Shown here in pieces: positions 3,225 through 7,266 of a DNA stretch of 15,149 bases. The stretch comes from Clostridiales bacterium. Its GTDB lineage: Bacteria; Bacillota; Clostridia; Christensenellales; CAG-138. Numbering within the stretch: the first letter of the stretch is position 1; the number at the start of each line of letters is the position of its first letter. The stretch spans positions 1 to 15,149 of the forward strand of contig JAAZFD010000274.1 in NCBI GenBank assembly GCA_012511925.1, given 5' to 3'. The translations under genes were made by a program, and so were the position numbers. Under the pieces are notes generated by a model. The model saw nothing but the letters and a program-made list of their open reading frames with translations. It made no database searches and was not told the DNA's origin.

Positions 3225-4541
3225 TCAATCTATGTACGACGAAACGTACACATCCTCCATATCTATTTCTACATTAAATGTAACGAAAACATTTTGATAC
3301 CTTTCATCCTTATAATTAAAAGCCTCCCACTCCTTTGTAGAGAAGAATTTCAACGAAACATATTTGCCAATACCAAACGCATCGCAGTTAAGCTCTTGAA
3401 CATTGTTGAAAAGGTTGTTTAAGCCATTTTCGCAATACGCAACTATTTGCTGACTTAGTTCATCTAATAGCCCGCCTTTTTTTCGCATCTCTAATTCCTG
3501 CTCCTTATCGACCTGCATATCAAGGCGAACCCCGATAGATATGTTATACACAACATCAATTCTATCTTCTTTAATGGTTACATCTACTTTAGGTGAACTT
3601 GCATTCCCTAACCTAACAACATAATTTGTTCCTTTATCAGTTTCCAAAGAAATTCTCGCGCCGGGAAGCCCTCCTTGTGCAAGCAGTAAAAACTGGGTTT
3701 CTTCTTTTGTTATTACGCCTACCATTTTGACACCATCAAACAAAGCACTGCCATCAAAATATGCTTTTGTTCCGCCCTCACGCTTTACACCGCTTGTGGT
3801 ATCCTTCGGGGTTGAGGAAGGCTCGGGACTTGAATCTTCTTTCCCGCCGCCACCTCCTGAGCCACCGCCCGAGCCGCCTGAGCCGCCCGAGCCGCCACCT
3901 GAGCCACCACCACTATCTGTAGGTGTTTGAATTGAATCATCTATTGCTCCAAGAGTAACCACTGCATCGCTATGGCGGTTCTCAATCGCACAAACAAATT
4001 CGAAAATGCTACGAGTTACAATAAAGCCCGTTGCCTTTGCATAGTCAACTAACATGCTTTGTAGCTTAGAATAGCTTGCACTTTCCCCTGCAATTAACGA
4101 TTGAATAAAGTCATCTGCTCTTTCGCTTGAAATTACCATGATAGAAGATGTTCTTAGCTTGGTTGTACTCCAAGATACTCTGAACAAATCTGCAATAGCA
4201 CCTTTTTCCGCACATTCCTTCGAAATAATAAAAATATTCGAGCGTGAGTAGTTCATGCGTTGAGGTAATCCCATCTCGGCAACATTTATTGCTTCATACA
4301 GGTTATCGCCCTCCGCAGATGCTATCATTGTTTCACTTTCCCGCGGAGTTTCTGCCGAAGGCGCAGCGCTTTGCATTAAAAAGGTGAACTTGTATTTGAA
4401 TTGCTCTCCCATATCTACCCCAATGCCGAGAACATAGACAAATTCTGAGATTGAATCAGGATTCATACAGCCCGAAAATAGCGGAGCAATCATTGAAATG
4501 ATTAAGCATAGACAAATCGTTTTAACCAACGCCGACTTCAT
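3225..4541 (-). CDS. gerC: Ger(x)C family spore germination lipoprotein with Gly/Ser linker
   Basis: This is the C subunit of a GerA-type germinant receptor, the lipoprotein that joins the GerA and GerB subunits in the spore inner membrane and helps spores respond to nutrients. Residues 1-25 are a lipoprotein signal ending in lipobox LFSGC (Cys25 would be lipidated). The N-terminal domain follows (about 27-205, with EFVYVLGIGVD), and then a C-terminal half from about 258 containing YFDGSALFDGVKMVG and ending with the family's terminal beta-strands. Between them lies an unusual low-complexity linker: an almost pure Gly/Ser run at about 210-233, then a Ser/Pro/Thr/acidic stretch to about 250. 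This makes the protein about 60 residues longer than typical GerC proteins of about 375. It has an AGGAGG site 7 bases before the ATG and overlaps the end of gerB by 20 bases, implying coupled translation. Family assignment is firm; the germinant is unknown. Confidence 0.93.
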   Translation of the reverse strand: MKSALVKTICLCLIISMIAPLFSGCMNPDSISEFVYVLGIGVDMGEQFKYKFTFLMQSAAPSAETPRESETMIASAEGDNLYEAINVAEMGLPQRMNYSRSNIFIISKECAEKGAIADLFRVSWSTTKLRTSSIMVISSERADDFIQSLIAGESASYSKLQSMLVDYAKATGFIVTRSIFEFVCAIENRHSDAVVTLGAIDDSIQTPTDSGGGSGGGSGGSGGSGGGSGGGGGKEDSSPEPSSTPKDTTSGVKREGGTKAYFDGSALFDGVKMVGVITKEETQFLLLAQGGLPGARISLETDKGTNYVVRLGNASSPKVDVTIKEDRIDVVYNISIGVRLDMQVDKEQELEMRKKGGLLDELSQQIVAYCENGLNNLFNNVQELNCDAFGIGKYVSLKFFSTKEWEAFNYKDERYQNVFVTFNVEIDMEDVYVSSYID

Positions 4542-5646
4542 TTTGCTGCCTCCTATTTATTATACTTGCACGCACAATAGCAATGCCCGAAACGATTATT
4601 ATAGGCACTGATAATATGAGAAATGAATAGTTCCTCAATAAGTCGAGTACCTGCTTTACTATGGTTAAAGTTAGGTGCGAGCTAATCGCAATATAAAGCA
4701 TTATAATGCTTAATCCTATCGAGGCAGGTCTTGAATCGTTTTGCTTAAACATTTTTGCGTAAATGTTTGACGAAGCATACATATAGTACGAGCTCGCAAG
4801 CAAAACCGCCATAATCCAGATAAATGACATTATTTTATCCATCCTCAATATAAGGTTTTCCAAAGCCCTAACCATACTGTATCTGTAAAGCGGAGTATAT
4901 AAATTTGTTAGGTCGATATAGGTGAACATCATGGCAAGCGCAAGGAAGGTTAATCCGCAAACTATTGCAGTAATAGGAACGGAAAAATAACCTGCCCGCT
5001 TTGCGAACTTTAACCCATGAACACTTTTTGGATTCCATAGAATAAACAATAGCGCAGGCAAGAATAAGCCTGAAGCCTTTAGGCTAACAAGCGCAGTATT
5101 TTCTAAACCATCGCCCATAATTGGCGCAATGTGATAAACGTCAAGCTCACCTACCTCACTTATTAACGAAAAGAAATGCATGGCAAGTAAGAACCATACA
5201 AGCGCCCTTGCGGTTCTGCAAATAGGCTCAAGTCCTAATAGAGAAAAATATGCAAGTACAGGTATAATAAACAACGCAATAGAAAAATAGTTGGAATTTA
5301 TAAAAAAGCTATTATACATTATATTTAAAAACCTGTTCAATGGTAGGATTGCACAAGTAATGCAATATACAATAAGTATAGCAGAGATTATTCTTGCCAA
5401 AAATTTTCCAATGCTGAACTCGAACATATCCATCAAGTTATGAGCGTTACAAGACTTTATAGCTGCTACGGCAAGCAAAAACACAAGCCCTGCAATTATC
5501 GCACCAACAGGAAAGCTAACGTATGTTGAGTTGCCCAATGGATATAGCTCTCCCGAATAGAATGAAAACAGCCCAGTAGTTACCATTGCAACGCATGTCA
5601 TGCTTATAATGGCTTGTTGACCAGATTTACCCTCCGATAAATTCAT
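4522..5646 (-). CDS. gerB: GerAB/YndE-type spore germination permease
   Basis: This is the B subunit of a GerA-type germinant receptor, an integral membrane protein of the amino acid-polyamine-organocation (APC) transporter fold thought to bind the nutrient germinant. The 374 residues contain about ten hydrophobic helices, at roughly 12-30, 43-64, 82-105, 118-138, 146-163, 190-205, 219-243, 269-291, 309-330 and 338-360. The short N-terminus with GKSGQQAIISM and the YTPLYRYSMVRALENL region before helix 8 fit the endospore germination permease family. Length is normal. A strong AGGAGG (5652-5657) precedes the ATG by 5 bases and directly follows the extended gerA frame. It ends with TAA inside the beginning of gerC. 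The ligand cannot be deduced. Confidence 0.93.
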   Translation of the reverse strand: MNLSEGKSGQQAIISMTCVAMVTTGLFSFYSGELYPLGNSTYVSFPVGAIIAGLVFLLAVAAIKSCNAHNLMDMFEFSIGKFLARIISAILIVYCITCAILPLNRFLNIMYNSFFINSNYFSIALFIIPVLAYFSLLGLEPICRTARALVWFLLAMHFFSLISEVGELDVYHIAPIMGDGLENTALVSLKASGLFLPALLFILWNPKSVHGLKFAKRAGYFSVPITAIVCGLTFLALAMMFTYIDLTNLYTPLYRYSMVRALENLILRMDKIMSFIWIMAVLLASSYYMYASSNIYAKMFKQNDSRPASIGLSIIMLYIAISSHLTLTIVKQVLDLLRNYSFLILSVPIIIVSGIAIVRASIINRRQQNEVGVG

Positions 5647-5658
5647 ACATTCCTCCTA

Positions 5659-5793
5659 TCAATCGCCTTGTCTGTTCATATAGTCTTCGCCGCCCAAATC
5701 GTTGTTTTTCAACTTTCCACGCAATATAAGCGGTCGCCTTGAGTGAGTTTTTACGGCATAAGGTGCAAGAATCGGCACGCCATAGGATTTTAA
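5659..5793 (-). pseudogene. gerA: C-terminal tail of GerA, in frame after an amber stop
   Basis: Reading on past the TAG at 5794-5796 in the same frame gives 44 codons starting LKSYGVPILAPYAVK and ending TGA at 5659-5661, one base before the gerB AGGAGG. GerA proteins end with a conserved cytoplasmic tail of the form SLxSFGVPYLxPxAP followed by basic residues; this segment matches it in content and position (SYGVP.LAPYA, then RRP and RGK). With the TAG read as one residue, GerA would be 535 residues, a normal family length. The tail is either cut off by a point nonsense mutation or made by readthrough. It has no start codon or ribosome site of its own. Confidence 0.75.
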
Positions 5794-7266
5794 CTAGCAC
5801 ATATAGCCTGTAACAATCAATGTACCAGCTACTATTCCTAAGAAGCCTGCCATGATTGCGGCAAAAACAAAGCCAATTCTTATATAGAACGAGGTAAGCT
5901 GTAATGTATAATCGGGGATACAGAAATTGCCCAAGCCAACAAATGCAACGAGTATTAACACAACTGCACTTGCCAAGTTAGCAGCAACAGCCGCCTGCCC
6001 TAATACAAGACCACCTATTATGCCGAGTGCCTGCCCGATACTCCCTGGGACTCTCATACCTGCTTCCCTTATTAGCTGGAAAACGAGCATCAGCATTACA
6101 AGCTCTACGCTAATTGGCACAAATACCATTACACGAGAAGCAATAATTGTGTTTAGCAATTCTGGCGATAAAAACCCATGATGATACATTACTATGGCAA
6201 TGAATAGCCCAGGTAGATAAATCGATGTAATTGCCGCTATTATTCGCACTGCCCTAACGAAAGAAGCGGCGGGGCTGCGAGCGTAAAAATCCTCTGGCAT
6301 CGAAAACATCATATACAGGGTTGTAGGAACTATAGCAATAAGTGGACTACCATCACACACAAGTGCAACATGCCCTTCAAGCAAGAATGAAGCACATCTG
6401 TCTGGCTTTTCGGTCAGCAATGCACTCGTAAATGGCGAGTTTGGTGTGCTTTCCATCATTTGAATCAAGGTGCTAATCGCAAAAACTTTTTTTATGTTTA
6501 TTTTTGATAGTCTGCGCTTAACCTCGTTTACAAGTGCATTGTTGGCTACGCCCTCGCAATAAAGTATTCCGATTTTTGTGTTGCTCTCCTTGCCTGCTGT
6601 GCGCATTTCGCAAACTAAATTATCGGTTTGAATGCTTTTTCTAATCATTGAAACATTTGTCCTTAGGCTTTCAACAAATGCTTCCTTTGGTCCTAACACC
6701 GTTTTTTCGTTTTCGGATACATCAACGCTACGAGTTGGGTAAAGCCTTGAATCAAATACAAGCGCACGTTCCTCGCCTTCTATGAATATAATCGCTTGTC
6801 CAGCTAATATTTTTCTTTTTAGCTTTACGAATTTGTTTTCGGTTTTGGCGTCGCATACCGTAAATACGCTTTTTAGTACATACTCGTATAGGGGCTTAGT
6901 TGCATTTTTTATCGCCCCCTCCTTCATGCCATCTCGCAAAAGAAAATCATTGATTACCATGGCATTAGAAATTCCGTTAATGAAAACGATAGCCGCAGGA
7001 ACCTCACCGCCGAGCATAAATTCTCTAATCAATAGGTCGGGGTTTATATCCGTCCTAAAATCCTGCCTTATCATGGTTAGATTGCTATGCAAATCTTTAT
7101 TTATAGGTAAATCTTCTTTTACATTACTTTCAAGCTGTGTACTGCGTTCTCCACGCTCTTTTTCGTAGGGGTCGCCGTACTCGGTTTCGTATAACTCAAA
7201 ACGCCTGTCTGAATCGTCAAACTTGAATACATTCGAAAAAGAATTAAATACTTGCTTAATGCTCAT
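5794..7266 (-). CDS. gerA: GerA-type spore germination protein (GerAA/SpoVAF family), interrupted before its C-terminal tail
   Basis: This is the A subunit of a GerA-type germinant receptor, a spore inner-membrane protein whose oligomers are thought to form an ion channel opened by the germinant. Residues about 60-290 form the soluble N-terminal domain (NPDLLIREF, FINGISNAMVINDFLL, LGPKEAFVESLRTN). From about 295 the membrane domain begins: LLEGHVALVCDGSP, then helices near 340-360, 380-398, 412-440 and 460-487, with the hallmark IREAGMRVPGSIGQALG and GGLVLGQAAV blocks. Translation stops at TAG after GYMC (490 residues), though the family's final tail is still encoded in frame beyond it. GAGGAG lies 9 bases before the ATG. 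It is the first gene of the gerA-gerB-gerC operon. If the stop is real, the protein lacks only the cytoplasmic tail and may or may not work. Confidence 0.93.
   Translation of the reverse strand: MSIKQVFNSFSNVFKFDDSDRRFELYETEYGDPYEKERGERSTQLESNVKEDLPINKDLHSNLTMIRQDFRTDINPDLLIREFMLGGEVPAAIVFINGISNAMVINDFLLRDGMKEGAIKNATKPLYEYVLKSVFTVCDAKTENKFVKLKRKILAGQAIIFIEGEERALVFDSRLYPTRSVDVSENEKTVLGPKEAFVESLRTNVSMIRKSIQTDNLVCEMRTAGKESNTKIGILYCEGVANNALVNEVKRRLSKINIKKVFAISTLIQMMESTPNSPFTSALLTEKPDRCASFLLEGHVALVCDGSPLIAIVPTTLYMMFSMPEDFYARSPAASFVRAVRIIAAITSIYLPGLFIAIVMYHHGFLSPELLNTIIASRVMVFVPISVELVMLMLVFQLIREAGMRVPGSIGQALGIIGGLVLGQAAVAANLASAVVLILVAFVGLGNFCIPDYTLQLTSFYIRIGFVFAAIMAGFLGIVAGTLIVTGYMC

Follow-up and report, generated by a model that had tools for sequence, protein, structure and literature searches.

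The in-frame TAG that divides gerA in the 15,149-nucleotide stretch analysed here (the window, which is contig C218 of a draft genome of 1,658,078 bases in 360 contigs, 86.6% complete) is most probably a single-base consensus error in a fragmented metagenome-assembled draft, and the real gene most likely runs on to the TGA at 5661-5659. Sequencing error, one of the causes listed in a preliminary description of this DNA, is the most likely of them on an assembly-wide pattern: nine or more further genes of the same assembly are each broken by an isolated in-frame stop, be it TAG, TAA or TGA, and valS and ileS are among them. The biological causes listed beside it are not supported.

It had been described that gerA is cut by an in-frame TAG, behind which the conserved tail of the family continues in the same frame, and both observations are borne out (Table 1). 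The 490-residue piece matches the Pfam GerA profile (PF03323) at 438 bits against a cut-off of 27, over profile positions 3-427 of 466, and ends in GYMC; the TAG (5796-5794) is followed by 44 sense codons that begin LKSYGVPILAPYAV, and the PF03323 match crosses the stop to reach profile position 458. Upstream of the TAG, gerA is 70% identical to that of the same-genus relative G001, which also shares 32 of 44 residues of the tail, and an alignment with 58 relatives places the SFGVPxL-type motif of the GerA C-terminal tail in frame after the TAG. The 44-residue tail alone had no Pfam match, as might be expected of a query this short. Judged from its sequence, the in-frame continuation is the family tail, chance being ruled out. 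The closing TGA of the extended frame lies, as had also been noted, right before the AGGAGG of gerB (5657-5652), whose ATG is at 5646. According to one published account of germinant receptors (PMC13170314), the A subunit has a small C-terminal tail at the inner membrane face.

At the column of the TAG, a stop codon occurs in 0/58 aligned relatives, where the residues are S (24), G (10), R (6), T, N and D (4 each), A (3) and Q, V and K (1 each); serine, proposed earlier as a frequent residue at this site, is indeed the commonest. The column is variable, and the motif downstream of it is strongly conserved. This alignment was drawn from 69 relative loci, 11 having been left out for identical last 200 residues. 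Within the family, 103 genomes were compared and 90 of them have GerA; a stop in gerA occurs in one of the 90, namely the present genome: the TAG is private to this assembly. In a protein collection, 194 relatives passed the cut-off; the best 120 comprise the window's own protein and 119 others, which measure 518-647 residues, none of them being cut at 490. The best match after the window's own protein is 71% identical to it, and the cluster to which the window's protein belongs has a second member. Its nearest relatives in the named collection are Clostridia assembled from metagenomes, for the most part of animal gut and rumen origin, and several bear the label Christensenella or Christensenellaceae.

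The genes adjoining gerA encode a B-subunit permease (PF03845) and a C-subunit lipoprotein (PF05504 and PF25198), and among the 11 genes listed in the window, part of which were compared with relatives, gerA is the sole one seen to be cut. No second GerA turned up elsewhere in the assembly. In gerC, a 24-residue glycine/serine linker, SGGGSGGGSGGSGGSGGGSGGGGG (3843-3914, minus strand), separates the two domains, and a similar glycine/serine gerC linker is present in DNA of a same-genus relative (L059).

Table 1. Features of the gerA operon (window coordinates) and isolated in-frame stops elsewhere in the draft genome (locus and position within it)
Feature	Position	Strand	Basis
gerA, germinant-receptor A subunit, N-terminal 490 codons as assembled, ends in TAG	5794..7266	-	PF03323
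In-frame TAG of gerA	5794..5796	-	sense codon in all 58 aligned relatives
Conserved GerA C-terminal tail, 44 codons and TGA, in the frame of gerA	5659..5793	-	
gerB, B-subunit permease, uninterrupted	4522..5646	-	PF03845 Spore_permease, 70.5 bits, profile 7-315 of 321
gerC, C-subunit lipoprotein, uninterrupted	3225..4541	-	PF25198 and PF05504
ileS, TGA	L170 303-305		TIGR00392 at 2-661 and 664-764
valS, TAA	L224 619-621		TIGR00422 at 1-594 and 605-802
ppdK, TAG	L160 418-420		TIGR01828 at 553-689 and 693-865
pgi, TAG	L132 1700-1702		NF010697 at 3-331 and 335-445
recD2, TAA	L217 4263-4265		TIGR01448 at 1-213 and 218-712
lplA, TGA	L117 1577-1579		TIGR00545 at 1-72 and 74-326
nrnA, TGA	L211 13168-13170		unbroken G001 alignment
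apbE, TAA	L227 2815-2817		unbroken G001 alignment
yetF-like gene, TAG	L202 2497-2499		unbroken G001 alignment

Nine further conserved genes of the draft (valS, ileS, pgi, ppdK, recD2, lplA, nrnA, apbE and a yetF-like gene) each carry a single in-frame stop, so that with gerA there are ten interruptions, four by TAG, three by TAA and three by TGA. For most of them, the pieces on either side of the stop match the same family model (Table 1), while one of the two pieces of nrnA, apbE, the yetF-like gene and gerA is too short or too divergent for a family match, and the basis there is an unbroken alignment with G001. Four of the genes (valS, ileS, ppdK and apbE) extend past a contig end. When the open reading frames of G001 were placed on the present genome (84 frames, 24,552 codons), five genuine internal stops emerged, in gerA, pgi and the yetF-like gene (TAG), in apbE (TAA) and in nrnA, where the TGA falls inside a GGGGHVHAAG stretch; no frameshift was flagged among these 84 frames. 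The reverse control, with frames of the present genome placed on G001 (86 frames, 24,514 codons), gave no genuine internal stop (Fisher p = 0.028 for the two directions; 0.056 if gerA is set aside, i.e. not significant at 0.05). These counts follow some judgement: ten internal stops were flagged on the present genome and five dropped, one upstream of a start codon, three in one overlapping shadow frame (L186/L100) and one in L174/L115, a 62%-identity match of ambiguous strand, and the single flag of the reverse control, also upstream of a start, was dropped as well. An unfiltered count, which put the genes with stops at 50, consisted mostly of antisense shadow frames and was set aside.

A scan of coding potential covered the readable sequence of the present genome, which comes to 423,591 bases in 76 stretches (of 100 contigs fetched from their first base, one of them cut at 20,000 bases, 39 read as N). 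Its first run gave 17 candidates, of which seven were kept and ten judged to be adjoining genes from the printed start; over the readable sequence it gave 11, including lplA, ppdK, the yetF-like gene, valS and apbE. The scan is far from complete for either the present genome or G001: it misses gerA, pgi and ileS, and both nrnA, which rests on the G001 alignment, and recD2, which rests on its family pieces, fall under the thresholds of the repeated scan. Applied to 345,631 bases of G001, the scan picked out four candidates, all resolved as complete or adjoining genes, and neither valS nor ppdK of G001 contains a stop. Candidate L094, with no near ATG, was rejected as a split gene, its two pieces belonging to two different families. 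An apparent in-frame stop in prfB turned out to be the normal end of that gene; between prfB and the next gene there are short tandem repeats of gtgatattgcttcgca type at L227 (G000:C181) 460-580.

The valS model had a match in 37 of 37 genomes, and the full-length valS of the present genome, the only full-length match of that genome among the matches listed, carries one TAA. In the other genomes of the 37, the valS matches over the cut-off are free of stops; among the weaker matches listed, a TGA is seen in one secondary match, in G006. The ppdK model matched in 33 of 37 genomes, and among the matches listed the only one with a stop is that of the present genome; the stop lies in the 3' portion of the gene, whose 5' portion sits on another contig. 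In another draft of the family, ppdK lies in two reading frames (G013:C67:36888-39510), which suggests a frameshift there; other drafts are therefore not free of damage either.

Cells require ValRS and IleRS. Given that truncated valS and ileS should not be survivable, consensus base errors are the best explanation for the stops, and the occurrence of all three stop codons with no frameshift flagged gives the pattern of random substitutions. Isolated stops were found here in genes needed for life, and none in G001 under the same scans. Thin read coverage would let uncorrected read errors enter the consensus, and random substitutions in such a consensus would account for all ten stops; about 4.5% of random substitutions in these genes give a stop, in the proportions 0.40 TAA, 0.38 TAG and 0.22 TGA. 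Ten stops in about 0.42 Mb would then correspond to an error in about one base of 1,900, a lower bound as the scans are incomplete, and at that rate about eight wrong bases would be expected in the window. A test for missense changes at near-invariant sites found no excess over G001 (2 against 5 in gerA, 18 against 18 in gpmI), and neither supports nor excludes the inferred error rate, its power at that rate being low.

The alternative with most in its favour, though an unlikely one, is that the TAG is a real and recent nonsense mutation private to the strain, which would make gerA a fresh pseudogene encoding a tail-less A subunit in a receptor that is perhaps crippled. The privacy of the stop and the undecayed tail are in keeping with it, as is the standing of gerA as the only GerA found; and gerA, unlike valS, could be lost without cell death. 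The tail was earlier described as being without further damage, which is true, but a base error predicts an undamaged tail equally well. SpoIVA and a high-scoring Spo0A, both present in G001, were not found in the present genome. However, sporulation is not generally lost: SigH, SigF with SpoIIAB, SigE with SpoIIGA, SigG and SigK are present, as called by best match, with SigF and SpoIIGA under their curated cut-offs, and these sigma factors argue that the organism probably still sporulates. The absence of Spo0A, moreover, is accounted for by a contig break: one contig stops within apbE, which precedes spo0A in G001. Sporulation loss as the background to gerA decay is accordingly not upheld, given the sigma set and a contig that ends before the expected spo0A; the contig end accounts for the absence of Spo0A, not for that of SpoIVA. 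(In G001, spoIVA sits within L208 (G001:C30) 5744-16649, among apparent prophage genes of portal, terminase and capsid types.) A real mutation also has against it the stops elsewhere in this assembly, which hit genes that one would not expect to be pseudogenes.

A leaky or regulated stop, at which readthrough of the TAG tunes the amount of full-length A subunit, is very improbable. The intact tail in frame would go with such a stop, but the TAG is shared by none of the aligned relatives and by no other of the 90 genomes with GerA, and similar interruptions, by all three stop codons, occur in unrelated genes. The 90 nt after the TAG fold no better than shuffled sequence (z = -0.36; 62 of 200 shuffles fold as well), giving no sign of a stimulatory RNA structure. 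The suggestion of a phase-variable or leaky stop tuning germination thus finds no support in either the relatives or the RNA. Slimmer still is the chance that the stops are real and tolerated, with ribosomes or a release system that let all three codons leak, and with full-length products of valS, ileS, pgi, gerA and others still being made.

Least likely of all is decoding of amber codons by a suppressor or pyrrolysine tRNA, or reassignment of TAG. Four of the ten interruptions are TAG, and the assembly yields just 20 tRNA matches, so that a CUA tRNA could be absent from it; but the six others are TAA or TGA, which means that no amber-specific mechanism explains them, and RF1 is present and uninterrupted. 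A search for PylS at E 0.001 found nothing in the genome, which is 86.6% complete, and no CUA anticodon occurs in the 20 tRNA matches, an incomplete set from which, for example, His, Lys, Gln and Arg tRNAs are likewise missing. TAG is besides a common normal stop: it terminates gpmI and glgB, as had been reported, and ends 47 of 217 listed open reading frames (a mechanical listing of frames of at least 200 residues in 99 sequences, partly masked). By a stop-extension statistic, which takes the open frame after each type of stop, TAG was not separable from TAA or TGA. The amber-decoding tRNA offered among the possible causes is not supported.

When one draft contains a striking split gene, its other genes deserve a look before anything else. 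In the present case, nine more interruptions, in genes that are unrelated and in part essential, turn what might have been a story of recoding or phase switching into a probable sequence error, and pseudogenes and gene losses called from the present assembly are unreliable. Should the gerA stop nevertheless be real, it would mean that the one GerA-type receptor detected in the assembly had recently been lost.

In its organisation the locus resembles GerA-family germinant receptor operons of the gerA-gerB-gerC type, with the order A-B-C, all three protein families and the tail motif in frame, and differs from them in that the A subunit of the present assembly is broken by a TAG ahead of its tail. 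With pyrrolysine and amber-suppressor systems it shares an in-frame TAG followed by conserved sequence; unlike those systems, it comes from a genome in which PylS was not found, RF1 is present and interruptions by TAA and TGA occur as well. The consensus errors of low-coverage draft and metagenome-assembled genomes share with the present case isolated stops that are private to one assembly, use all three codons and are spread across unrelated genes, essential ones among them.
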